A stretch of DNA of 64,000 nt from Parapedobacter tibetensis (GTDB taxonomy: Bacteria > Bacteroidota > Bacteroidia > Sphingobacteriales > Sphingobacteriaceae): assembly GCF_024704835.1 (NCBI RefSeq), contig NZ_JAMXBE010000005.1:378778-442777 (forward strand), given 5' to 3'. The position numbers were made by a program, and so were the translations under genes. The notes beneath the pieces are model-generated. The model saw only the letters and a list, made by a program, of their open reading frames with translations, made no database searches and was not told the origin of the DNA. The first letter of the stretch is position 1, and each line of letters begins with the position of its first letter. This document shows, one piece after another, positions 1-14,428 of the stretch.

Positions 1-576
1 CTTTACCAGATTGCGTGGAATGTCTGTATTTTTTCCATACCTAGCCGCTACCTGGAACCCAAGTTTGGCCATAGCAGTATAGGAAGCTGGATCGCTTTTG
101 TTGGCTCCTTTTGGAATGGGGGTATAATCCCTCAGGCTGTTGTATGGATCGGCAGGATTATATTCCCCTGGATAATATTTGGACCTAAACCATGTTGGTA
201 CAATTTGCAAACATACCAATGTGGCAATGTCATGTTGTTTATTCCGCTCATAGATTTTGTCATAGCTAAATCGGTAATATCCTTCTTTTTCCTCTATCCG
301 TTCCCAATCAAGGTATTGCCGAAAGCCAGTAAAGGGCTGAATAAGCTGAAATTTCTGTTCATCAATGACATTTACACTACTGGTATATTCCCAGTCAAAA
401 CCATTGATTCCGAGCATGTTTTCAAAAGGGATACCTGTTGAAGGGGTGTTTCCGTTTTGCGGATTTTCAATTTCCCCTTCTTCATCAGATAGGCTAGGAG
501 GGATGATTTTTGAACAACTTGCCGAAAAATTCATTCCGATGACAGCCAGGTATATGAAAATCTCTTTGTATAGCAT
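1..576 (-). CDS. Glycosidase-like lipoprotein, partial at 3' end
   Basis: An open frame of 192 codons runs from an ATG at 574-576 off the left edge of the window, so the C-terminus is missing. The N-terminus is a lipoprotein signal: a short hydrophobic stretch, then SASCSK, where Cys20 would be lipidated. A Ser/Pro/Asn-rich linker follows, then FRQYLDWERIEEKEGYYRF and a segment with LVCLQIVPTW. This pattern (Arg-x-Tyr-x-x-Trp, Glu, Gly-x-Tyr-x-Phe) is typical of the first beta/alpha units of TIM-barrel glycoside hydrolases, so a surface polysaccharide-degrading role is inferred. No catalytic Glu can be assigned because that part is outside the window. It may belong to a polysaccharide-utilisation locus to the left. 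Confidence 0.6.
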   Translation of the reverse strand, partial: MLYKEIFIYLAVIGMNFSASCSKIIPPSLSDEEGEIENPQNGNTPSTGIPFENMLGINGFDWEYTSSVNVIDEQKFQLIQPFTGFRQYLDWERIEEKEGYYRFSYDKIYERNKQHDIATLVCLQIVPTWFRSKYYPGEYNPADPYNSLRDYTPIPKGANKSDPASYTAMAKLGFQVAARYGKNTDIPRNLVK

Positions 577-871: not shown

Positions 872-3800
872 TTATGCTATATCATGGGTAGTATGGTCTC
901 GCTGAATCTTTTCATCTAAACACCGTTGGAGCGCAATTGCCAATGCTTGGTCATGAGGTGGGAGTATGAACGTCTTGTGGTCGCCCGGCACATCGTGTAC
1001 CTTAACACCCTTTTTCGCGAAGTTATTCCATCCAAGGTATTCGGGATCGTCCAAGAAGTATAACCGTTTGGTCACCCTAAACAAGTCAATTTGAATATCC
1101 AATGGCTCAATCCAGTAATTGTCATAAGCATTGAGGTAGCTCACCAAAATCTCTTTGTTGTAGGTGAAAGACTCCAGTTCGTTGTATGTCTTTTCGGTCA
1201 CCATATCTTTAATTTTTTCCAACAGGATCAGCCGCTGATAGGCTAGTGTCTCGGCTGGGTAGGCCATAAACGTCTTGACAAAGAATGGAATTTTCCTAAA
1301 CTGCCTGACGAGTTTCTGCGTAAACCACTTCAACCGGTTTTCATGGTGGATGTCATTGCTGGCCACGGTGTCGAAAATACCGACCATCTCCACCTGTTTC
1401 CCCATGGCAAGTAGCTGGCGTGCCATTTCGTAGACGATTTTGCCCCCGAGGGAATAGCCCGCTAGGCAGTACGGTCCATCTGGGTTGCCGACCAAAATCT
1501 CTTGGATGTATTTGTCGGCTATCTGTTGCATATTGTCAAACAGCGTGGCCTCGCCGTTTAGGCCCAAAGCCTGCATGGCATATACCGGTTGGTCCTCGTC
1601 GAGGTACTTTGCCATCGACTGGAAAACCAGCACATTGAGGCCCCCACCGTGTACCAAGTAAATAGGGGGCTTAGTGCCTTCAGTCCGTATGGGCACTAGG
1701 GAATCCCACTTGACCTGCTCATCATCGCCGCTTATGAGTTTGGAGAGCTTGGCAATGGTGGGGTTTTCGAATAGGCTGGAAAGTGGCAGCCGGATACCGC
1801 GTTGTTTTTCGATGGCAAGCATCACTTTCACAGCTATTAACGAATAACCACCAAGCTCGAAGAAATCGCTATGTACACCCACCACCTCAAGCCCCAAAGC
1901 TTCTTCCCATATGTCGGCAAGGAACAGTTCGGTGGCATTACGAGGGGCAACAAAATCAGCAATTTGTTGGCTTTGGTCCACGGAAAGCAGCGATGGGGAA
2001 GGAAGCGCTTTCCGGTCAATTTTTCCACTAGGGGTCGTGGGGAAATGGTTGATAGCAACGATGGTATGGGGAACCATATAGTCGGGCAATGTCCGCGCAA
2101 GCGCGAGTTTCCATGTTTTAAGTTGCGTCTCCGCTATGGCCTCCGGCAAGATGGCGGGCGATGATCCGGGAGAAACGGATGTTGGATGGTTTTTCAATAA
2201 GACATAGGCTACCAATCGCTTCACGCCTGCGGTATCTTCGATCAACTGCACTACCGATTCGCCGATGCCTTCCAGTTTGGTCAGCTCCGATTCGATTTCA
2301 CCCAATTCGACCCGATACCCTCTAATTTTCACTTGCGAATCGCCTCTTCCAAGGAAGACAAGGTTTCCCCCGCCATCGTATTGGGCAAGGTCCCCGGTAC
2401 GGTAAATGCGCGTAGCCTTGCCATTGGTGGTGATCTCCATAAAACGTTCTGCGGTCAAGTGGGGTGCCCCGAGGTATCCATCCGCTAAGGCAACGCCCTC
2501 TACGCATAATTCGCCTATTTCCCCGGCACCTACGGGTTGCTGGTTTGTATCCAATAGGTGGATGCGGGTGTTGTATATGGGTGTTCCAATTGTGGGTATG
2601 GCTGGCCAATTGGCAGGATTTCCATCCAATTTCAATGCCGTCACCACATGGGTTTCGGTTGGTCCATAGTGGTTGCTCAGTGAGGCGTTTGGCAGGTGCG
2701 AAAAAAACCTAGCCACCTTGTCGGTAATTTTTAGTTGCTCACCAGCGGTAATCACTTCCCGCAGGCCGACTGGGAAGATATCGCTCGTACAGCCGTATTC
2801 TGCCAGTGCATGCAGCGCCACGAAGGGTAGGAATATCCGGTTGACGCTTTCCTTGTCGATATGCCTGAGCAGTTCCGGTATGTCGTAACGCATTTCCTCG
2901 GGGATGAGGCATAACGTGCCTCCTGTGGTGAGGGTCGAAAAGATTTCCTGAAAAGAGACATCGAACGTAATGGGTGCAAATTGTAGGGTCTTTGTATGCA
3001 TATCTGCATTGGAATGTTCCCGATGCCATAGTAGTAGGTTGGTCAATGCGCGTTGGCCCATGGCTACACCTTTGGGTTTGCCCGTAGAGCCTGATGTGTG
3101 CAGCACGTAAGCCATCGCATCATCGGGGATTGCAATGTCCGAAAGTTGATCCAAAGCGGTTTGTGCTGCTCGGGCAAAGTCTTCCAACGACACGATCGGT
3201 TGGTCACAATCATGTTGATGGATCAATGCTTGGTGTACGACGATGCATTTCAAATCGGCTTGGGCCGTGATGGCCGCAATACGCTGCTTAGGGAATGTGA
3301 TATCTAGGGGTACATAGGTAGCACCTATCCGGAGGATGGCGGTCACCATGGCCACCAGGTCAAACCCTCGGTACAGCGAGATGCCAACACGATCACCCGT
3401 ATTTACCCCCATTGCCAACAGTTGGTTGGCATATCGGCCAGACATGGACAATAGCTCTCCATAGGTCATCGATTCGCCCTCATGTTCCAATGCGACGCGT
3501 TCACTGTATTGTTGCAGCGCAGTATTTATCCAGGTCGTTAACGAGGTCTCGAGTGCGCGTTCTCGGTAAAGCTGGTCTGCCCACCATGCCGATGTATGTT
3601 GTGTTTCCTTGGTTTTTGGTGGTAGGGGAAACGTGGCAGGGAAATACTTAAGCAACGCCCTGCGGTCTATTACGTCTGATTTGTTTTTAGGTAATTTATC
3701 GAGTTCGATCCATTTTTCGGGGATGGACAGTGTGGCATCATCTTCGCGCAAGGCCGATTTCCAGCCGTTAACGATTTCTTGTGGCAGAAACGGCGTGCTT

Positions 3801-6511
3801 CCATGTGGAAGATTGGTGAATGTATCCAATGCCACTCCTGCTAGTACGATGCCAGTAGGGGGGGCTGGAACGGCTTTTCCGAGGGACTGCGGAATGAATA
3901 CGGCTTCTATAAGTCCGTCCGTACCGTCCGTCGACCAGCGTACATGGGTGTTGAACCCGTGTTTTTCGCCAACACGCCAAAGTGTATTGGGGAGAATTCC
4001 TTCACCTTCGGCAGTTGCTTGAAATTGGCCGATGGTATCGTCATCTGCCGCTGCCACCATGAAATGGTGCAATGCCACATCCCGGCGCAAACGCGGGTTG
4101 GGGATATGGGTAAGGCAGATGATCTCATTGTGGTTATGTGTCAATAAATGGTCTAGCGCTTCAGCAGACTGCCAAGAGTTGGTAAGAGTAGGGGAAACCA
4201 CGCTTATTTCATCCGTGGTATGCAACCACACGTCATAGTGGTATTTGGTGGTTTCGTTATCCAGCATTCCCTTGCGCAACTGCACGTCCACCGCCGTTAT
4301 TTCAGGTATAAATGTGGGCAATAGGTAAAAATATCCAGGGTCTATGGTCAACTCATGTTCAAGCTTCACCCGGTTTTGGACGATTTTCTTGAATTGGCCT
4401 ACCATGGTCTTCGGATTGGAGCGCTGCAACTGGTCACCTGCGTGGAACAGGGGTAGCGAGTTTTTACCCTGCACATCCCCAATAAATACGCAGCCCTTTT
4501 CCATATGACTTACCGCCTGAATAATCAGGTTGTATAGATACTGGTAATTGGGGAAATATTGACTTACACTATGTACAAGTATAAGATCAGTAGGTTGTTC
4601 CGGAAGATGGCTGAAGTCATCCGCATCGCGCACGAAAGCGGTGATATGGTTTAACGGCCTATCCGCGTCGCTGGAAAGCTTGTTTTTCAGGTCGGTGATG
4701 GCCGTTTCCGCATAGTCGGTTGCGATATACGATGTCACGTGTGGAGCAAGCTCAAAAATGAGCTGCCCGGCCCCACATCCTACTTCCAATATATGCCGAG
4801 GTGCCACCGCAAGAATCCGCTCAATGGATTGCTGCATCCATTCTTCGGCTTGTTGCTTTACTGTTTCATCTTGCGACCCTAATTGTTCGGCCACGACCAA
4901 GTCAAGGTTCTGTCCCTTGTTCTCGGCCGTTCCACCGGCGTTGGCGGCCATGTCATACAGCAAGTTCCATTTTTCTTTCCATGAAGACTGCCCGGCCTCC
5001 AACGTATCATGCCTCATCGTAAAGTATGTCACCATCTGTCCACTATCCCGGGCAACAACCGCTTCGTTAATGCCTGGAAGTTTGGTAAGTGCCAGTTCGA
5101 CGGTGGTGTCCGCTATACCGCTTTCAGATTGGTTTACGGAATTGGTAGATCCGATGGTTGAAATGCTCGCTTCGGGATGATCGGCAAGTTCTGCCAGGAA
5201 GTTAATGAAACGCCGTATCCAGCGTTGAATGGTTTGTTCTTTAAACAGGTTGGTATTATATGACCATTCCAATACCATGGATCCCGCAGACCCGGTCACA
5301 TTCAAATACAATTCAAAATTCTCGAACGACCGTGGATTGGAGGCCAATTCGTGTTTCAGTTCCGCAAAAGCAACGCGGCTATCCATTCCCATATCCACAT
5401 TGAAGACGACCGAGACCAACGGTATATAGCCGGGTTTCCGTGGGGGATTGAGCTTTTTCAACAAGCTACCGAAAGTAATCCGTTGATAATCGAGGTCGCT
5501 AAGCAATTCGGACTTTCGCTGTTTTATGTAGTGTAATACGCTCTTCGCTTGATCAATCCTGGCGCGAATGGGTAGGAAATTGACGCAATGGCCAACCAGT
5601 TCAAAGCGTCCGGTTGCGGCCTGCCCAGAGGCAGGCAAACCCACTACCAGATCATCCTGATGGGTGATGTCGCGAAGAAACAGTTCGAACGAAGAAAGTA
5701 GTGTGGTCACCAAGTTGGCACCAGCAGCTAAACCCAGTTTTTTGATCTTGTCGACTAGTTGGTTGTCCAAAGGCCGGTCTATCCGGTTGCCATTGTAAGT
5801 CCGCATAACTGGCCTTGGCAGGTCAATAGGCAATTCGACCACCGGTACGACATCCTCAAATTTCCGAAGCCAATACGCTTCTGTTTCCTGGTATTCAGGA
5901 GTACGGAGGTAGTTTTTTGCATCCAACGCATATAAGCGCATGGACTCCGGTGCATCCAATTGAGGTGCGTTAGCGCCCACAAGCGACGAATAGATTTTGC
6001 CAAGGTCTTCAAGGAGGATGCCGAAGGACCACCCGTCGCAGATAATGTGGTGTGCTGTGATGCGGAGTACGTGCTTGATTTCATGGAGTTTTATCACATG
6101 GAACCGGATAAGTGGCCCTTTTTCCAGATCGAATGGAAGGGAAGAGTCCTCCTCCGCCAGTTGCGTCAGTTCTTGTTGGCGATCGGGAGAATCGGCGAGA
6201 TCCACGTGTGTAATTGACGGATGCTTTTCGTTATAGACGAACATTTCCTCCCCATCGTGGCTGAAGGTAGCCCGCAAGGCTTCATGCCGCCCGATGACAA
6301 TAAGGATTGATGCCACCAGGCTAGGAATATCCAATACGCCGTCGAAGCGGATAGTTATCGATTCGTTATATGCACAGTTTGCGTCATCCGCACCCAAGGC
6401 GCATGCCAACCAGATTTCCTGCTGCGATTCGCTTATAGGGATGACTTTCTCCAATTCTCCGTCCGCAAACGGATTGAAATCAACGGGTATGAGCTTGTAA
6501 TCCAGTTCCAT
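872..6511 (-). CDS. NRPS module: C - MT (in vestigial A) - A - PCP - TE
   Basis: Terminal module of the hybrid assembly line (1879 aa). Order: condensation domain (~20-450) with HHIICDG at 154-160. Next comes a segment (~455-945) with a SAM-dependent methyltransferase (ILEVGCGAGQL near 574), flanked by what looks like the C-terminal subdomain of an adenylation domain, ending in an A10-like NKSDVIDRRAL. A complete adenylation domain follows (~985-1500; HTSGSTGKPKG, YGPTETH, YRTGDL, GKIDRKAL). Then a carrier domain with Ser1557 in LGGYSL, and a type I thioesterase with Ser1687 in GYSLGG and His1845. Specificity positions read by eye give DVQFIAHVVK, close to the known proline code DVQLIAHVVK, so Pro is the inferred substrate. 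It starts 3 nt after the upstream synthase stop and is surely co-transcribed. Odd: the first A domain lacks its whole large core (A1-A7), leaving only its MT-bearing subdomain. Confidence 0.9.
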   Translation of the reverse strand: MELDYKLIPVDFNPFADGELEKVIPISESQQEIWLACALGADDANCAYNESITIRFDGVLDIPSLVASILIVIGRHEALRATFSHDGEEMFVYNEKHPSITHVDLADSPDRQQELTQLAEEDSSLPFDLEKGPLIRFHVIKLHEIKHVLRITAHHIICDGWSFGILLEDLGKIYSSLVGANAPQLDAPESMRLYALDAKNYLRTPEYQETEAYWLRKFEDVVPVVELPIDLPRPVMRTYNGNRIDRPLDNQLVDKIKKLGLAAGANLVTTLLSSFELFLRDITHQDDLVVGLPASGQAATGRFELVGHCVNFLPIRARIDQAKSVLHYIKQRKSELLSDLDYQRITFGSLLKKLNPPRKPGYIPLVSVVFNVDMGMDSRVAFAELKHELASNPRSFENFELYLNVTGSAGSMVLEWSYNTNLFKEQTIQRWIRRFINFLAELADHPEASISTIGSTNSVNQSESGIADTTVELALTKLPGINEAVVARDSGQMVTYFTMRHDTLEAGQSSWKEKWNLLYDMAANAGGTAENKGQNLDLVVAEQLGSQDETVKQQAEEWMQQSIERILAVAPRHILEVGCGAGQLIFELAPHVTSYIATDYAETAITDLKNKLSSDADRPLNHITAFVRDADDFSHLPEQPTDLILVHSVSQYFPNYQYLYNLIIQAVSHMEKGCVFIGDVQGKNSLPLFHAGDQLQRSNPKTMVGQFKKIVQNRVKLEHELTIDPGYFYLLPTFIPEITAVDVQLRKGMLDNETTKYHYDVWLHTTDEISVVSPTLTNSWQSAEALDHLLTHNHNEIICLTHIPNPRLRRDVALHHFMVAAADDDTIGQFQATAEGEGILPNTLWRVGEKHGFNTHVRWSTDGTDGLIEAVFIPQSLGKAVPAPPTGIVLAGVALDTFTNLPHGSTPFLPQEIVNGWKSALREDDATLSIPEKWIELDKLPKNKSDVIDRRALLKYFPATFPLPPKTKETQHTSAWWADQLYRERALETSLTTWINTALQQYSERVALEHEGESMTYGELLSMSGRYANQLLAMGVNTGDRVGISLYRGFDLVAMVTAILRIGATYVPLDITFPKQRIAAITAQADLKCIVVHQALIHQHDCDQPIVSLEDFARAAQTALDQLSDIAIPDDAMAYVLHTSGSTGKPKGVAMGQRALTNLLLWHREHSNADMHTKTLQFAPITFDVSFQEIFSTLTTGGTLCLIPEEMRYDIPELLRHIDKESVNRIFLPFVALHALAEYGCTSDIFPVGLREVITAGEQLKITDKVARFFSHLPNASLSNHYGPTETHVVTALKLDGNPANWPAIPTIGTPIYNTRIHLLDTNQQPVGAGEIGELCVEGVALADGYLGAPHLTAERFMEITTNGKATRIYRTGDLAQYDGGGNLVFLGRGDSQVKIRGYRVELGEIESELTKLEGIGESVVQLIEDTAGVKRLVAYVLLKNHPTSVSPGSSPAILPEAIAETQLKTWKLALARTLPDYMVPHTIVAINHFPTTPSGKIDRKALPSPSLLSVDQSQQIADFVAPRNATELFLADIWEEALGLEVVGVHSDFFELGGYSLIAVKVMLAIEKQRGIRLPLSSLFENPTIAKLSKLISGDDEQVKWDSLVPIRTEGTKPPIYLVHGGGLNVLVFQSMAKYLDEDQPVYAMQALGLNGEATLFDNMQQIADKYIQEILVGNPDGPYCLAGYSLGGKIVYEMARQLLAMGKQVEMVGIFDTVASNDIHHENRLKWFTQKLVRQFRKIPFFVKTFMAYPAETLAYQRLILLEKIKDMVTEKTYNELESFTYNKEILVSYLNAYDNYWIEPLDIQIDLFRVTKRLYFLDDPEYLGWNNFAKKGVKVHDVPGDHKTFILPPHDQALAIALQRCLDEKIQRDHTTHDIA

Positions 6512-6514
6512 GAG

Positions 6515-9500
6515 TTAATTAAGCTGTTCGACTTGTAGGTATTTGCCCGGATGTTGTTCATCCTCGATGAACCATGCGGGGTTCCCCGCCATATCCTTAC
6601 CAAGCCTTGCGTTGGCTATGGGCGGTAGGTTATCCAAATCGAGCTCGCCCATGGTAGGGATAAATCCCACCTTCACCAATTCATGAACACTACCCTCGAA
6701 GGCATGGACGATCTGCTTGATATCTTCATCGGTATGTGCCGTGGTCAGGAAGCAAGGGAAACCATCAAGGATATGGATACCGCGGATACGCATTGCCGTA
6801 AACAGCAATTCACCATAGGCGTATTCCCCATGGTATTTTACTTTCCACAATGACCCAAATTGGGCGATGTATAACGGTATCTGGTACTTTTGGCAAACGC
6901 TATTCAGCTCATCGACGAGCGCTTTTGTTTGGTTAGTGAGGTTTTCTTGCAGTTGCGGGCCCTGAGCCTTGAGATATTCCAATGAGGCTTTGGTGGCAGC
7001 CAGTGCCAAGGGATGGCGCACAAAGGTGCCCGCGAAATAGGTAACACCTACTTCTGGCACGGAATCGTTGCCGTATTCCCAGTATCCGCCATCCAGCGCA
7101 TCCATGAATGCCCGTTTCCCAGCGATTACGCCGACCGACATTCCTGAGCCCACCACTTTTCCGTAGGTAGCCAAATCGGCCTCGATTCCCCAAAGGTGCT
7201 GCATGCCATGTAGGTGCATGCGGAATCCTGTGATGACTTCATCGAAGATAAGCGCTGTGCCTGATTCCGTAGTGATTTTACGCAATTCCTTTACAAATTC
7301 GACCGGTTGAAATTCCGGTCTGCGACTTTGGACGGGTTCCACCAATACAGCCGCCAGCTCATGCGCGCGCTCACGGATAATTTGGAGCGATTCCGGTGTG
7401 CCGTAATCGAGGATGAGCATGTTTTGCACGGCTTCGGGCATGATCCCGGACGCAGCAGGGAAAGTTTTCAGTTTCTTCGTGCCCCGCACGATCACTTCAT
7501 CCACAATACCATGGTACGAATTTGAAAAAGCGACAATCGTAGACCTTCCGGTTATGGTGCGGGCTATTCGCATAGCACCCAATACCGCTTCTGACCCGGT
7601 GTTGCATAAGGCTGCGCGGTCCATATGCGTCAATTCACATATCAATTCACAGACTTCGCCGGCCTTCTCGTGTTGCGGCCCGATTTCATAGCCTTCGTCG
7701 ATCTGTTGGTGCAGGGCGTTAGCGATAAAGTCGGGCTGGTAGCCGAGCATGTTAGAGCCGAAACCATTCAATGCATCGATGTACTCATTCCCATCAATGT
7801 CCCACAACCTGCATCCTTTTGAACGGTTTACCACGATGGAATACACCATCTCCTTAGTGGCGGGCTTGAAGCCCGATACTACCCTCGGGTCGGCCATGCG
7901 CGTGCGATGCGCCTGTGCATAGGCTTTACTTTTTGCGGTTTTGGCTACATACCGAGCGATGAGATCGGCCAGGTACCGCTCTTGTTCTTCGTTTAGTGCG
8001 GAGGATTGCCTTTCAATGCGTGCTGTCGCCCCGAAAGGCTTCTTGAGCGCTGCCATTTCTTCTGCGGCCAACGTGGTATCGGTAGGTGTGGTGCGGGTTT
8101 CGCTCACTACAGATTGGATAACTGGTACCGGTTTCCCGTTTTGATGTGCAGCCATCGGCTGTTGGAAGCTCATCGATGCCGACCCTTGCAGTAAAGCAAT
8201 CTGTTGAGATATTAAACTGATTTGTTGTGATATAAGGCTTATGGGATCCAGTTGTTGTGTAGCTGTATCGGCCACCTTTTGCGGAATACGGTTCATAGCG
8301 TTTGAGTACGAAGGCATTACGGGAGCCGTATTGAATTCCTGAGGCAATGGCGTCGACGGGCTCACCGGTGGTTGGTAAGACTCGGTAGGTAGGTGCTTAT
8401 CTAAGTACTCGCCAAGCAAGTTAAGGTTGTGGTATTCTTCGTTTAGCTTACGGAATGTGATAGGCAGGCCAAATTCTTTCTTTAAGCTTTGGGCAATTTG
8501 GGTCAACAGGAGTGAATCAAAACCGATTTCGATAAAGGTGGCGTGCAGCGGTGCATCTGCGATATCTATGCCAGAAGCTTCCTCCAATAGGGTCTTTACG
8601 TTGTTGATTAATAAATCTTTCCTCATGATTATATTACCTCTTAATTTACTATCTTCTTTGATGATTTTGTCGGTATCTTTTTCTGGTCCTATCCAATGAT
8701 ACTTTCTATCATGCGCATAGGTAGGCGCCGTATGGATGGTCTTAGGTTGCGCTGGGAGATGAATTTCATCCCAATGCGGTACGATGCCATGTGTCCATAA
8801 TTGTCCGAGCGATTGGTACATGGCGTAGTATTCGCCGCTTTCGTGAGCATATAGGCCTCCTATGGATTTTTGGGCCAATGCGGCTCCATGCTGTTTAGCC
8901 AATGTGGAGGTCACCTGGCCGGGCCCGGCTTCAAGATAGATGGGGTGTAATTCCTGTTCGAGGAAGAGGAGCGCTTCAGAAAACCGCACGGTAGCCACTA
9001 TGTGATGCGCCCAATACGCGGGATCGGTAGCCTGCTCATCTTTCAGCCAGCTTCCGCTCACCGTGGATACGATGGGCATTTTGGGAATATGTAGGGATAT
9101 GCGGGCTACCTCCGACTTGAAATCTTCCAAAATAGGCTGCATCATGCTGGAGTGGAACGCGTGACTCGTATGCAGCGGTTTGCAGGCAATCCCATGGCTT
9201 TCCAATAGCGCTGCGAAATCGGCAATGGGCTGGTCTGGCCCAGTCACCACACAGAGGTTTGGGGCATTGATGGCCGCGATGGATAGCTCGGCAGGTAATA
9301 TCGTGGCTACCCGATCGGCGGCGGCGCGTACGGACAGCATGCTCCCGTGATCAACCGAACTGGTAAGTCTGCCCCTCGTGGTAATCAGCCTCAATGCATC
9401 TTTCAATGAAAACACTCCGGCAAGGTGGGCAGCAACGAATTCTCCGATGCTATGGCCAATGTAGGCCGTAGGCTTGATGCCCCAGCTCATCCATAGTTTT

Positions 9501-12500
9501 GCGGTAGCATAGGAGGTGATGAATAGCGCTGGCTGTGTATAGTACGTGTTGCGCAAGATTTCGGCGGCTTGTGCTTGATCGGTTACAGGGTCATCGGTGA
9601 AAATAACTGCCCGTATATCTTCACCCATTTCCTGTAAAAGGATTTCGGCACATTGGTCGATGGCCTCGCGGTACACAGGCTCATGGCGGTACAGTGTGAG
9701 CCCCATATTGATGTATTGGGCTCCTTGCCCCGGAAACATGAAGACGAGTTGATCGGTGTTTTCCTCCAGGTCGCCATAGATCCATTGGCCTCCAATCAAT
9801 TTGTTGCTCAATTCTTCATGGCCTTCGGCAACGATCGCATATCTTTTATTAAGGTCTTCGCGCGTAGTCTGTAATGTATAGGATAATGCGTCCAAGGGTA
9901 CCGTGGGATTTTTGCTCAGGAAATCCACCAACCTGCCGGCATACGACCGTGCCGCCTCATCGGTTTTTGCTGACCAGTTAACCAGCACCGGACGTTTGGC
10001 AAGCGGCGGTGTAGATTCATCAGTCGGTTCGTAGACATGTGCTTCCAATAGCACATGTGCATTGGTGCCACCTACGCCAAAAGAACTTACACCGGCCCTA
10101 AGGCGCTGGTCAATGTTCCAATGGAAAGGCCTTTCGTTTACGACAAAGGGGCTATTCGAGAAATCGATGTTTGGATTCGAACAATCGAAATTAATGGATG
10201 GGGGGATGACTCGGTGGTAAAGTGAAAGGGCTACCTTGATTAGCCCGGCGACTCCGGCGGCATGGGTGAGGTGACCCATATTGCTTTTGATGGATCCGAT
10301 CCGGCAAAACTGCTTTTCCGGTGTGTCACCAAAGGCTAATTTTAGCCCTTCGACCTCTATGGGATCTCCCAACGGGGTGGCCGTACCATGGGCTTCGATA
10401 TATCCAATGGTCTCGGGCAGGAACCCTGAGTCGTCCATAGCCATTTGGATGGCCATAGCCTGGCCTGTCGCCGATGGTGCCGTGAAGCTGCCCTTGCCGC
10501 CGCCATCGTTACTCAACCCAACACCGCTAATGATCGCGTAGATTGTATCGCCGTCAACTTTGGCATTTTCCAGATCTTTCAATAGCACCACTCCCGCACC
10601 ATCGCTGAACACCGTACCGGTTGCTTGTGCATCGAACGGGCGCGTGTGGCCATCGGTGCTGAACATCGCTCCTTCTTCGTAACGTTGCCCGCTATGGATA
10701 GGTACTGTAATGGAAACACCCCCGGCAATGGCCATGTCGCATTGGCCATTTCGGATGGCTTCAACGGCTTGGGAAATAGCTACCAATGAGGTGCTGCAAG
10801 CGGTATTGAGGCTTACCGCTGGACCCTTCAAGTCCAGTTGGTAAGCAGTGCGCGTGGCGATGTAATCTTTTTCGTTGGCAACCATCACCTGAAACGCACC
10901 AATCTTTGCTATTTCTTCAGGATGGTGTTGCAGGTTGTTGATGAAGTAGGTGTTGTTGCCTGTGCCTGCATATACGCCAATCGAATGTTGGGCCCTTGAA
11001 GTGAGGTACCCCGAGGCTTCCAGCACATCGCGGCTAATCTCAAGAAATATGCGCTGTTGCGGATCCATAAGTCTGGCCATTGTTGGGTTGATGCCAAACA
11101 ACGCGGCGTCAAACCATTCGGCTTGATCAACTATGCCCCGTGCCTTGACATAATCAGGGTCATTGAGCAACTCATTGGGGATGCTGCCGTCCAGTTCCGC
11201 ATCGGAGAAAAATTTAACCGTCTCTTTTCCAGAAAGCAATATGTCCCATAGCTCTTCCACCGACGCGGCGCCCGGAAATTTTCCTGCCATGCCGATGATG
11301 GCAATAGCCTTATTTTTGTTCCCTTTCCTCACATTATGCCTTTTCGCCATCGGAGTTACCGATTCCGTGCCGTCTACGATGACAGCGAGTGCAGCCGCTG
11401 TGGGGTATTGGTAAATTTTGGTGACCGTTATTTCGATGTGGTGTCGCTGTCTAAGTTGCGCGACAGTCTGTTGTGCGAGCAACGAGTTGCCACCCAGCTC
11501 AAAAAAATTGTCGTTTACGCCTACCTTATCAATCAGCAACAACTCACACCAAAGTGCTGTGATTTCCCTTTCCCTTTCGGTAGACGGCTTTTTGAACAAC
11601 GTGCCGATATCCGGTCGGGCCACCTCTGGCGTGGGAAACGCATTGCGATCCACTTTGCCACTGGTGGTCTTTGGGAAGGATTCCAGCCACACGAAAGCAG
11701 CAGGCACCATATAATTGGGGAGCTTTTGCCCGAGATATTCCCTGATGGGAGATATGTCATGCAGATTGCCGTCTTGGGATATGAGGTAAGCAACGAGCCG
11801 CTTGATGCCTGGAGAGTCTTCACGAAGAACAACGACACTTTGTGCGATTTCAGGCAACTCAGCAAGGCAGATTTCGATTTCGCCAAGCTCTACCCGATTT
11901 CCCCTGATTTTTACTTGGTGGTCGGCCCGCCCATGGAATTCGATTTCACCGTTTGGCAGGAATCTGCCTAGGTCACCGGTACGGTACAAACGGTGTTTAT
12001 GACCTCGGGAATCCTTCCAGGACAGGTATCTTTCGCGTGTCAACTCCTCGCGATTCAGATAGCCTTTCGACACGTTGACGCCACCGATATAGATTTCACC
12101 GACCTCGCCCTTTGCCACCTCATTCATTTGCGTGTCTAGTAAGAAAATATCCGCATTGTCGATGGGTGCGCCAATGGTGGGGATATCCGGCCAGTTTTCC
12201 GCGTTGCCTGTAAGCCTCAAATCCGTGACCCAGATGCTTGTTTCCGTGGGGCCATACACATTTACCAAGGTGCAGTCCGGCTTTTGCACAAAAAACTCAC
12301 GGATCGCGGGCGTAATTTTCAATAATTCGCCCCCAGTGGTGATTTCCTTGAGCGATGGTGGATAGCATTTCAAGTTCCGAGCTGCTTCAGTCAGGTATTG
12401 CAACACGACATAAGGCACGAAAATCCGGTTGATGGACTGCTGCTCGATGTACTTGAGCAACTGTACGGCATCAAGGCGGATGTCTTCGCCGATGACGTGT

Positions 12501-13198
12501 AGGGTGCCTCCAGATGTGAGACTTACGAATACTTCCTGGAAGGAAGCATCAAAACTTAGATGCGAGAAAAGGAGGTTTTTCGAACCCCCACTGGCCTTGC
12601 TGTCGCGCAATTGGTGTTCAATGAGGTTGCGCATGCCCACATGGGTCATGCATACCCCCTTGGGAATGCCTGTAGAACCCGATGTATACAGCAGCGCAAT
12701 CAGTTCGCTGTCAACAGCAGGAGAGGGGGCCCCCAATTCTGAAGGGTCACTGCCTTCGCCAATAGCCCATGATGCGGCCAACGGTGTCAATTCGAATTTG
12801 GAGAAAAACTCGTTTTCAGCATGCTCGCAAACAACGAACTGTACACCGGCATCTTGTACCATCTGCCGTATTCGTTCTTCGGGATAAGTGATGTCTAGTG
12901 GTAGGTAAGCCTTACCGGATTTGATAATTGCCAGCATCCCCACGATGGTACCGATGCTTTTGGTAGCACTTAGGCCAACGAAGGAGGCTAGACTATTTTG
13001 TGAAATAATTAAATGCGCTAACTTATCAGCTTTTATGTTTAATTGATGAAACGTCAAGGCATCCTCCCCGCAGTGGACGGCAATACGGTCTGGTGTTTGT
13101 GCTACCCATCCATGAAAATAGTCTAGTATCGATACATAACTCGATTTTTCCATACTTTTCTTGGTTCTATATTGAACGGATGGTAGGTCGACGGTCAT
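6515..13198 (-). CDS. Hybrid NRPS-PKS: A - PCP - KS - AT - ACP - aminotransferase
   Basis: First protein of the assembly line (2227 aa). It has no N-terminal condensation domain, so it acts as a starter: adenylation (~25-520; YTSGSTG, YGPTETS, GKVDRNA) and PCP with Ser572 in LGGNSL. A ketosynthase (~629-1055) follows with Cys801 (TACSTS), His937 (EAHGTA) and His976. The acyltransferase has Ser1250 in GHSIGE and an HAFH motif around 1346-1349, the malonyl-CoA signature. ACP Ser1562 sits in GFDSL, and after a Gln/Ser-rich linker comes a class III PLP aminotransferase (~1750-2190) with Lys2014 in YGKVVGSG. The AMT arrangement resembles the mycosubtilin/iturin synthases. There is no KR, DH or ER, so the expected product is an amino acid extended by two carbons with the beta-ketone turned into an amine. 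A-domain positions read DAQFITVIWK, which I cannot match to a substrate; Trp at position 331 suggests a small pocket. Confidence 0.9.
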   Translation of the reverse strand: MTVDLPSVQYRTKKSMEKSSYVSILDYFHGWVAQTPDRIAVHCGEDALTFHQLNIKADKLAHLIISQNSLASFVGLSATKSIGTIVGMLAIIKSGKAYLPLDITYPEERIRQMVQDAGVQFVVCEHAENEFFSKFELTPLAASWAIGEGSDPSELGAPSPAVDSELIALLYTSGSTGIPKGVCMTHVGMRNLIEHQLRDSKASGGSKNLLFSHLSFDASFQEVFVSLTSGGTLHVIGEDIRLDAVQLLKYIEQQSINRIFVPYVVLQYLTEAARNLKCYPPSLKEITTGGELLKITPAIREFFVQKPDCTLVNVYGPTETSIWVTDLRLTGNAENWPDIPTIGAPIDNADIFLLDTQMNEVAKGEVGEIYIGGVNVSKGYLNREELTRERYLSWKDSRGHKHRLYRTGDLGRFLPNGEIEFHGRADHQVKIRGNRVELGEIEICLAELPEIAQSVVVLREDSPGIKRLVAYLISQDGNLHDISPIREYLGQKLPNYMVPAAFVWLESFPKTTSGKVDRNAFPTPEVARPDIGTLFKKPSTEREREITALWCELLLIDKVGVNDNFFELGGNSLLAQQTVAQLRQRHHIEITVTKIYQYPTAAALAVIVDGTESVTPMAKRHNVRKGNKNKAIAIIGMAGKFPGAASVEELWDILLSGKETVKFFSDAELDGSIPNELLNDPDYVKARGIVDQAEWFDAALFGINPTMARLMDPQQRIFLEISRDVLEASGYLTSRAQHSIGVYAGTGNNTYFINNLQHHPEEIAKIGAFQVMVANEKDYIATRTAYQLDLKGPAVSLNTACSTSLVAISQAVEAIRNGQCDMAIAGGVSITVPIHSGQRYEEGAMFSTDGHTRPFDAQATGTVFSDGAGVVLLKDLENAKVDGDTIYAIISGVGLSNDGGGKGSFTAPSATGQAMAIQMAMDDSGFLPETIGYIEAHGTATPLGDPIEVEGLKLAFGDTPEKQFCRIGSIKSNMGHLTHAAGVAGLIKVALSLYHRVIPPSINFDCSNPNIDFSNSPFVVNERPFHWNIDQRLRAGVSSFGVGGTNAHVLLEAHVYEPTDESTPPLAKRPVLVNWSAKTDEAARSYAGRLVDFLSKNPTVPLDALSYTLQTTREDLNKRYAIVAEGHEELSNKLIGGQWIYGDLEENTDQLVFMFPGQGAQYINMGLTLYRHEPVYREAIDQCAEILLQEMGEDIRAVIFTDDPVTDQAQAAEILRNTYYTQPALFITSYATAKLWMSWGIKPTAYIGHSIGEFVAAHLAGVFSLKDALRLITTRGRLTSSVDHGSMLSVRAAADRVATILPAELSIAAINAPNLCVVTGPDQPIADFAALLESHGIACKPLHTSHAFHSSMMQPILEDFKSEVARISLHIPKMPIVSTVSGSWLKDEQATDPAYWAHHIVATVRFSEALLFLEQELHPIYLEAGPGQVTSTLAKQHGAALAQKSIGGLYAHESGEYYAMYQSLGQLWTHGIVPHWDEIHLPAQPKTIHTAPTYAHDRKYHWIGPEKDTDKIIKEDSKLRGNIIMRKDLLINNVKTLLEEASGIDIADAPLHATFIEIGFDSLLLTQIAQSLKKEFGLPITFRKLNEEYHNLNLLGEYLDKHLPTESYQPPVSPSTPLPQEFNTAPVMPSYSNAMNRIPQKVADTATQQLDPISLISQQISLISQQIALLQGSASMSFQQPMAAHQNGKPVPVIQSVVSETRTTPTDTTLAAEEMAALKKPFGATARIERQSSALNEEQERYLADLIARYVAKTAKSKAYAQAHRTRMADPRVVSGFKPATKEMVYSIVVNRSKGCRLWDIDGNEYIDALNGFGSNMLGYQPDFIANALHQQIDEGYEIGPQHEKAGEVCELICELTHMDRAALCNTGSEAVLGAMRIARTITGRSTIVAFSNSYHGIVDEVIVRGTKKLKTFPAASGIMPEAVQNMLILDYGTPESLQIIRERAHELAAVLVEPVQSRRPEFQPVEFVKELRKITTESGTALIFDEVITGFRMHLHGMQHLWGIEADLATYGKVVGSGMSVGVIAGKRAFMDALDGGYWEYGNDSVPEVGVTYFAGTFVRHPLALAATKASLEYLKAQGPQLQENLTNQTKALVDELNSVCQKYQIPLYIAQFGSLWKVKYHGEYAYGELLFTAMRIRGIHILDGFPCFLTTAHTDEDIKQIVHAFEGSVHELVKVGFIPTMGELDLDNLPPIANARLGKDMAGNPAWFIEDEQHPGKYLQVEQLN

Positions 13199-13507: not shown

Positions 13508-14428
13508 ATGACATTAACATCCATTATTACGGTCAACTACCGGCAACCAGCGCTCACTGAAGATTTCCTACGTTCACTATCGACGTGTGCCAATGAACAG
13601 GAAGTGGAAGTGATTGTAGTGGATAATGGCGCTGAAGAGGATAACGGGGAGCGTTTCAGGGTAATTTATCCATCGCTCATCTACATCCGCTCCGAAAAAA
13701 ACCTAGGCTTCGCTGGTGGCAATAACCTGGGCATCCGGTATGCCCAAGGCGACTATCTACTGTTCCTCAATAACGATACGGAGATTACCGGAAATTTCAT
13801 CCCTATATTGCGCGATGAGCTTCACTGCCATCCGGATATTGGCCTGCTTTCACCGCTCATCTTGTATTTCGAAGATAAACGCAAAATTCAATATGCCGGT
13901 TATACGCCGATGAATTACCTCACCGGCCGCAACAACGGCATCGGCGTTATGGACGATGACGACGGGCAATACAGCTATATGACAACCCAGACGGGGTATT
14001 GCCATGGGGCAGCCATGATGTGCCGAAAGGCCGATCTCGAAAGCGTAGGATTGATGGAGGAACATTTCTTCCTTTATTATGAAGAATTGGATTGGTGCGA
14101 GAAGTTCAAACGTGCCGGTCTTAAAATCGGTTTCACCGGAAAGGCTAAGATTTACCATAAGGAATCCATGAGCGTAGGCAAGGAAAGTCCCCTGAAGAGC
14201 TATTTCATGGTTCGAAACCGGTGGCTTTTCATCAGGCGCAATGCCAAATGGCCTGCGGCGCTCCTCTTTGGTTGCTATTACCTGTTTATAGCCATACCTT
14301 ACTTAATCATCAAGCGCCTGATCCAGGGTAAGGTTGGATTAGCGAAAGCTGCGCTGAGCGGAATATGGTGGAACGTTACCCATTCTACTGATAGCAGCGA
14401 CCTGGGCATAGAACTACCTGCAACCTGA
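13508..14428 (+). CDS. Family 2 glycosyltransferase (rhamnosyltransferase-like)
   Basis: 306 aa GT-A fold enzyme. Seen: N-terminal SIITVNYRQP and VIVVDNGAEE, the nucleotide-binding loop EKNLGFAGGNNLGI, the DxD-equivalent LFLNNDTE near residue 95, and the acceptor-side FFLYYEELDWCEKFKRAG. A hydrophobic segment around residues 255-275 probably anchors it to the inner membrane. Such enzymes add a sugar from a nucleotide-sugar to lipopolysaccharide, capsule or similar glycans; donor and acceptor cannot be told. It is transcribed away from the NRPS genes and converges with dapA, 5 nt apart, so it stands alone. A role in glycosylating the NRPS product is possible but unsupported. Confidence 0.85.
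   Translation: MTLTSIITVNYRQPALTEDFLRSLSTCANEQEVEVIVVDNGAEEDNGERFRVIYPSLIYIRSEKNLGFAGGNNLGIRYAQGDYLLFLNNDTEITGNFIPILRDELHCHPDIGLLSPLILYFEDKRKIQYAGYTPMNYLTGRNNGIGVMDDDDGQYSYMTTQTGYCHGAAMMCRKADLESVGLMEEHFFLYYEELDWCEKFKRAGLKIGFTGKAKIYHKESMSVGKESPLKSYFMVRNRWLFIRRNAKWPAALLFGCYYLFIAIPYLIIKRLIQGKVGLAKAALSGIWWNVTHSTDSSDLGIELPAT

Follow-up and report, generated by a model that had tools for sequence, protein, structure and literature searches.

What is made by a two-protein line of nonribosomal peptide synthetase (NRPS) and polyketide synthase (PKS) domains in Parapedobacter tibetensis, and what is the role of a methyltransferase (MT) in it that seems to have lost the adenylation (A) domain to which it once belonged? 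The two genes lie in a stretch of 64,000 nucleotides (NCBI RefSeq assembly GCF_024704835.1, contig NZ_JAMXBE010000005.1, positions 378,778 to 442,777 of the forward strand), here called the window. The line is real, intact, and of a widespread kind. Judged from its sequence, it is probably a complete small line that would join a 3,4-diamino acyl unit to a proline-type residue, yielding a pseudo-dipeptide, with the MT put to a new use.

Domain architecture of the line

The two open reading frames (ORFs) are intact, run on the minus strand, and are separated by 3 bases. Domains were assigned with Pfam (best domain match E 8.7e-83, far from chance). Protein 1 shows AMP-binding, PP-binding (two stretches), the N- and C-terminal ketoacyl-synt families, Acyl_transf_1, and Aminotran_3; protein 2 shows Condensation, Methyltransf_12/25, AMP-binding, PP-binding, and Thioesterase. 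In domain terms these are an A domain, carriers (T and ACP), a ketosynthase (KS), an acyltransferase (AT), and an aminotransferase (AMT), followed by a condensation (C) domain, the MT, a second A domain, a carrier, and a thioesterase (TE). A sequence-only reading of the window had given the same order, A-PCP-KS-AT-ACP-AMT and then C-MT-A-PCP-TE, and the motifs are in place as well: TACSTS, EAHGT, and NMGH..HAAG in the KS, YGK in the AMT, EVGCGAG in the MT, SGKVD and SGKID as the A10 motifs of the two full A domains, and those listed in Table 1. We take these motifs of the KS, AT, ACP, AMT, C, MT, TE, and A10 to have their usual active-site meaning, and HAFH to mark a malonyl-type AT. The families of reductive domains (KR, DH, and ER), which had been reported as missing, were found in neither protein at E 0.001. 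With loading A-T, KS, AT, ACP, and class-III AMT in a single chain, together with the catalytic motifs of KS, AT, and carriers and the AMT lysine, protein 1 has the make-up of a hybrid NRPS/PKS with an in-line aminotransferase.

The stranded methyltransferase

The stranded METHYLTRANSFERASE of protein 2, its MT, seems on alignment to be of the type that is inserted into A domains, with its own A core, T, and the next C domain gone. The closest comparison is offered by two lines of the same genus, in Parapedobacter pyrenivorans (L067) and P. defluvii (L006), whose second proteins (2850 and 2808 aa) read C-A(Gly-type)+MT-T-C-A-T-TE. Protein 2 of the window matches that of L067 in three blocks (residues 5-463 to 27-487, 471-955 to 910-1402, and 975-1878 to 1961-2846), and between these blocks the A core and the T-C pair of L067 are skipped. 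The lost A domain has left traces around the MT, on one side a stretch of A8 and on the other one of A10, reading SDVIDRR. A lysine precedes the ID in the 10 relatives with a readable A10 (the eleventh, L030, is not covered there), and the window lacks it. Of the positions that are near-invariant among the 11 relatives, the window keeps 59 of 63 in the MT and all 11 of 11 in the stretch directly after it, against 6 of 23 on the A8 side and 9 of 18 on the A10 side. A structure model of the remnant-MT-remnant stretch (513 residues, 12 sequences, mean pLDDT 78.5) found its best fold match in 5wmm, an MT-interrupted A domain, over 514 alignment columns.

Compared with the A-MT-A arrangement of 5wmm, the window thus retains A8 and A10 traces around the MT, which stands between A8 and A9/A10 as in MT-interrupted A domains, but a functional A core (A1-A7) and the A10 lysine are missing. 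For this reason the arrangement is derived from the MT-interrupted A domains and is not one of them. The C-MT-A order given by the sequence-only reading is therefore present, but that reading had overlooked the degenerate module, of which the adenylation core and the carrier are gone.

The distribution of this arrangement was followed in several sets. The 80 loci referred to throughout are the best 80 of at least 590 stretches that encode some relative of protein 1 (at least 596 matched a pattern), a relative being a match to any protein 1 domain at E up to 1e-3; contig ends cut several of them, and their hosts include Pedobacter, Mucilaginibacter, Spirosoma, Larkinella, Flavobacteriia, Nostoc, Luteibacter, and Variovorax. 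An A core precedes the MT in all 11 MT-bearing proteins found in these loci. Likewise, among the matches listed for 60 relatives, every frame with an MT match also matches an A core. When the C-MT junction served as a query against 395 genomes of the class, 6 matched at E up to 1e-20, namely the own genome and 5 others, without a second junction. In each of those 5, the alignment starts on the MT side of the query, at residue 58; because an alignment may also break off at a C end of weak similarity, this is absence within the searched set and not proof of uniqueness. On these comparisons, there seems to be no other module with this C-MT junction among the searched genomes and relatives. In PMC8097286, A cores are described as recombination hotspots at which the Asub part is left in place; compared with the hotspots described there, the A core of the window seems to have been lost and not exchanged.

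Because the A flanks decay while the MT stays constrained, the MT probably still methylates in cis. The alternative is that it is dead weight, which has methylated nothing since the module was lost and is intact only because that loss is recent, so that the product would be unmethylated. Its own A core and T are indeed gone, and the remaining A domain is of the Pro type, whose prolyl thioester would not usefully be N-methylated. On the other hand, the flanks have already decayed to the extent given above while the MT has not, and an overall identity of ~47-48% to the nearest relatives does not look recent. We consider a dead MT unlikely.

Predicted substrates and chemistry

We infer the substrates from the codes of the A domains, which were read by alignment to a GrsA fragment, only A domains with a recognizable A3 motif being taken. 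The starter code DAQFTGVIV is common to the window, L006, and L067. The code of the second A domain, DVQFIAHVV, is taken here to be Pro-type. For both A domains, the solved structures with the best single-stretch match are chains of GrsB and TycB (8p5o and 9bfd_B), and the domains in those chains presumably take proline. The mycosubtilin AMT chains 6kfu and 6kfm are the closest solved relatives of the AMT.

The first A-T pair would load an amino acid. One round of ketide extension by the KS and the malonyl-type AT would turn it into a beta-keto-gamma-amino thioester, whose ketone the in-line class-III AMT would then convert to an amine, giving a 3,4-diamino acyl-ACP. The C domain would couple this chain to the residue loaded by the second A-T pair, for which the code suggests proline, and the TE would release a short cationic pseudo-dipeptide, possibly methylated. 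The MT is probably the survivor of a former N-methylating module (a Gly-type A domain with inserted MT, T, and C) and would now act in cis on the chain, methylating one of its amines. Its likeliest target would be the diamino acyl unit, because an N-methylated prolyl thioester would block condensation. Malonate extension, transamination, and the addition of one more residue had all been proposed from the sequence before, and the domain order agrees with them, the chemistry itself being predicted. The plain beta-amino acid proposed at the same time has to be refined, since a starter that is an amino acid should lead to a 3,4-(beta,gamma)-diamino acid.

In the mycosubtilin-type (iturin/mycosubtilin) synthases, whose MycA AMT is the closest solved one, the order KS-AT-ACP-AMT converts a fatty acyl starter to a beta-amino fatty acid. 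The window differs in that its A-T pair loads an amino acid, for which reason the 3,4-diamino acid is expected. TAN-1057, considered as a lead for the product, was set aside, though not conclusively: its line would have a 2,3-diaminopropionate-specific A domain with N-methylation, while the code of the second A domain here reads as Pro-type, and no diaminopropionate gene was seen by eye among the neighbors. No TAN-1057 gene cluster is given in the passages covered of PMC9248904 and PMC7440613. In the literature searched, which left subscription journals, preprints, and MIBiG outside its scope, no product or cluster with this domain order was found.

Closest relatives and history of the line

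The lines of L067 and L006 stand at the same site as that of the window, beside dapA and ligA, and share its starter code; by domain, their first proteins are 50-89% identical to protein 1 (67-89% in A1, KS, AT, and AMT, 64-69% in the first carrier, and 50-51% in the ACP). They differ from the window by the full extra module of protein 2. Between each other, the two differ in their last module, as the last C, A, and TE of L067 find best matches of only 31-41% in L006. A single recent deletion from an L067-like parent is too simple an account of the window, because the divergence of protein 2 goes far beyond that of protein 1.

Several points weigh against the reading of a shortened line with a diamino acyl-prolyl product. 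Protein 2 is only 47% (C), 48% (MT), 47% (A2), 61% (T), and 63% (TE) identical to that of L067, and 48% (C), 47% (MT), and merely 31-34% (last A and TE) to that of L006, while L006 and L067 share 72-77% with each other across C1-A-MT. With protein 2 so much more diverged than protein 1, the protein is either mosaic or fast-evolving. Deriving it from an L067-like parent by loss simplifies matters and calls for two separate losses, and preservation of the MT can also mean that the loss is recent. Furthermore, the starter code DAQFTGVIV is not known to match any described code, and the use of a GrsA fragment as reference is a weakness of the code reading.

An expanded line was observed in P. soli (L054, 6008-27943), where C-A-MT-T-TE is followed by two A-T-KS-AT-ACP-AMT proteins in a row, with starter codes that we take to be Thr-type and Ser-type, and by further C domains after the second AMT protein, at which the stretch ends.

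Distribution of the two-gene order

The order had been taken to be special in this phylum, which does not hold. By a script pattern, a protein of the A-T-KS-AT-ACP-AMT type is present in 69 of the 80 loci, and in 59 of the 80 (in Bacteroidota, cyanobacteria, and proteobacteria) a C-start protein follows on the same strand within the next two ORFs, with a TE in 51 of these 59. Five fused proteins run from the AMT directly into a C domain and so support the order of transfer. Among 73 starter domains, including that of the window, 41 have a DVQ-code (presumably Pro-type), 25 of which read DVQFMAQVV; 40 of the 98 other A domains have a DILQ-code, presumably Gly-type.

The widespread lines of A-T-KS-AT-ACP-AMT and C-A-T-TE, such as those of Pedobacter (L010) and Mucilaginibacter (L042), thus share with the window the domain order in neighboring same-strand genes. 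The window differs from them in its starter code, its Pro-type second A domain, the orphan MT, and the lack of an adjoining phosphopantetheinyl transferase (PPTase) gene, which is frequent but not universal in such cassettes. Of the 80 loci, 46 have a PPTase-type cluster, in 40 at no more than 500 bp from a synthase gene.

Genomic neighborhood and the surface polysaccharide

The features of the line and the genes next to it are collected in Table 1.

Table 1. Features of the two-protein line and its immediate neighbors, in positions of the window
Feature	Position	Strand	Evidence
Protein 1, A-T loading then KS-AT-ACP-AMT, 2227 aa	6515..13198	-	ORF, Pfam, motifs
Starter A domain, aligned 9-residue code DAQFTGVIV	11639..13129	-	Pfam, alignment
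Loading-module carrier, GGNSL	11384..11566	-	Pfam, motif
KS, catalytic Cys and both His motifs	10037..11311	-	Pfam, motif
AT, GHSIGE and HAFH	8879..9751	-	Pfam, motif
ACP, GFDSL, limits approximate	8429..8626	-	Pfam, motif
Class-III pyridoxal phosphate (PLP) aminotransferase domain	6659..7891	-	Pfam, motif, solved relatives 6kfu, 6kfm
Protein 2, C-[A8 remnant-MT-A10 remnant]-A-T-TE, 1879 aa	872..6511	-	ORF, Pfam, motifs
C domain, HHIICDG	5132..6451	-	Pfam, motif; 47-48% to first C of L067, L006, L021
Apparent decayed A8-side remnant of lost A domain	5042..5116	-	6/23 near-invariant residues kept
Orphan MT	4136..4915	-	Pfam; 59/63 near-invariant residues kept; model matches 5wmm
Apparent decayed A9/A10-side remnant, A10 lysine lost (SDVIDRR)	3650..3784	-	9/18 kept
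Second A domain, code DVQFIAHVV	1997..3544	-	Alignment; solved matches 8p5o, 9bfd_B
Second carrier, GGYSL	1733..1921	-	Pfam, motif
Type I TE, GYSLGG	932..1666	-	Pfam, motif
Family-2 glycosyltransferase between synthase and dapA, cluster c1	13508..14428	+	Pfam; members in 19 loci compared
531-aa protein, 5' part, no Pfam match; between synthase and exopolysaccharide locus	1..576	-	ORF

Upstream, beyond the c1 glycosyltransferase, follow dapA and then ligA, both named by reading. About 2 kb downstream, on the opposite strand, an exopolysaccharide locus begins that runs left of the window (~C45:362-378 kb). The Pfam matches in it are to a flippase and an outer-membrane export protein, to a carbohydrate esterase, and to a sugar transferase and glycosyltransferases. 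Three more proteins were recognized by reading alone: a response regulator, a Wzc-like protein, and a polymerase-like protein, the last of which has no Pfam match. It had been stated that no transporter, PPTase, or regulator is beside the line, which has to be corrected, as the exopolysaccharide locus adjoins it downstream and a PPTase gene lies 41 kb away.

Farther along the same contig, at L005:8804-9975 (C45:348.8-350.0 kb), a tandem repeat of ~1.1 kb is open in two frames, with units reading ...KGKHVPYKVWRSPL..., and adjoins a transposase-like ORF (7420-8604, by reading).

Three other genomes show different layouts. In G001 the line and a polysaccharide locus stand together, 430 kb from dapA and beside the valS neighborhood; in G002 neither is present in the 30 kb read; and in G003 a polysaccharide locus is found at the dapA site without the line. 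Taken with the counts below, these layouts make the line an accessory that tends to sit by a polysaccharide locus. At the place of the line, G003 has ~20 kb of other genes, five of which encode proteins of 566-589 aa (L172, G003:C18:222-242 kb).

The association was counted with hidden Markov models (HMMs) built from the flanks. At least three surface-polysaccharide genes were found in 24 of the 80 loci, in 12 of the 20 flanks of 10 relatives, and in none of 20 control stretches (Fisher P 0.002 for the 80 loci against the controls); at least one such gene was found in 38 of 80 loci, 14 of 20 flanks, and 1 of 20 controls (P 0.0002). These flanks had also served to train the HMMs. One of the 20 flanks is only 207 bases long and two others are below 20 kb, the control stretches were hand-picked on contigs of earlier matches, and some of the relatives also stand among the 80 loci (L067/G004, L006/G007, L021/G005, L054/G008, L036/G020, and L051/G021). 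As an independent check, Pfam models were used, PF02397 and PF13440 on 11 genomes and PF00535 on 4. Of the 11 genomes, 9 (3 of 5 genera) have a PF13440 flippase no more than 10 kb from the line, and 10 (4 of 5 genera) have one when the distance is widened to 35 kb. For the PF02397 sugar transferase, the number of genomes rises from 1 at 10 kb to 3 at 20 kb and 8 at 35 kb (4 of 5 genera). At 35 kb the sugar transferase is missed in G007, G008, and G010 and the flippase in G010; in all of these a contig end lies within that distance. By chance the genus counts at 35 kb would be expected with probabilities of ~2e-4 (PF13440) and ~4e-5 (PF02397), a limit that was set after the distances had been seen. 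In the own genome, 3 of the 30 PF00535 glycosyltransferases are within 35 kb of the line, against 0.41 expected.

How should this proximity be understood? There is in our estimate an even chance that the two sets of genes only share a variable spot of the chromosome, and that the line makes a diffusible metabolite such as an antibiotic, a chelator, or a signal. The last modules of L006 and L067 (C2, A, and TE) are only 31-41% identical, against 66-89% in A1, KS, AT, and AMT, 2 of 8 congeners have only weak, synthetase-like matches, and polysaccharide genes are absent from 42 of the 80 loci, all of which favors a variable spot. What it does not readily explain is that 4 of 5 genera show the link at 35 kb, and with different gene orders.

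The other explanation is that the line serves the exopolysaccharide, a diamino acyl-peptide being put onto the polysaccharide or a sugar precursor. The gene counts in loci and flanks (at least three genes, against none in the controls) and the co-location of PF13440 and PF02397 in 4 of 5 genera each speak for such a service, as do two Mucilaginibacter loci (L007 and L056) that have, just upstream on the same strand, two glycosyltransferases and a gene read as acyltransferase-like. Nevertheless, the 42 loci without such a gene in the stretch covered, the single genome of 11 with a sugar transferase within 10 kb, the choice of 35 kb afterwards, the training of the HMMs on the same flanks, and the polysaccharide locus of G003 without a line all count against it. 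In the window, moreover, the two gene sets face opposite ways, and no obvious gene for taking over a thioester was read. We therefore regard a service to the polysaccharide as improbable. The fuller proposal, in which a cassette recurring beside Bacteroidota exopolysaccharide loci makes vicinal-diamino acyl-peptides that become attached to the surface polysaccharide, and the orphan A-embedded MT of this strain works in line on the transaminated polyketide amine with neither an A domain nor a carrier of its own, appears slightly more doubtful still.

Upstream of their synthase genes, the Mucilaginibacter loci L007, L056, and L068 carry two glycosyltransferases and an acyltransferase-like gene together with an extra A-T-TE protein of 883-885 aa.

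PPTase genes and other polyketide loci

A genome-wide search for a PPTase, which the sequence-only reading had called for, was made with PF01648 and found two stand-alone proteins, of 251 aa on C45 and of 213 aa on C85, as well as a third match, to a domain within a KS/AT protein on C34. The 251-aa protein, a member of the PPTase superfamily, is encoded on the same contig as the line, ~41 kb from it. In the PPTase cluster of the family, 45 of 46 members match it (best 39%), and next to it lies a glycosyltransferase of cluster c2 that is 67% identical to that of L068. In 6 loci, too, a PPTase and a c2 gene stand next to each other and converge.

No second copy of the line was found in the genome among the matches listed. 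The other KS matches are a two-gene KS/AT/KR/PPTase cluster on C34 and frames of 388-434 aa, which by length only we take to be FabF-like. The genes on C34 (172.1-183.4 kb; L177:4121-15438, minus strand) read KS/AT/PPTase and NMO/KS/AT/carrier/KR. Together with an FAD oxidoreductase and two genes of the UDP-glycosyltransferase type, the pair looks like a separate cluster for a glycosylated polyketide or lipid.

Implications

The orphan MT is an apparent natural case in which an A core, a carrier, and a C domain were lost while the tailoring enzyme was kept, and it bears on how NRPS modules shrink as well as on NRPS engineering. For the loci that share the two-gene order (59 of the 80), the analysis predicts one chemistry, that of amino-acid-primed diamino acyl peptides, and offers a link to the surface polysaccharide that can be tested.

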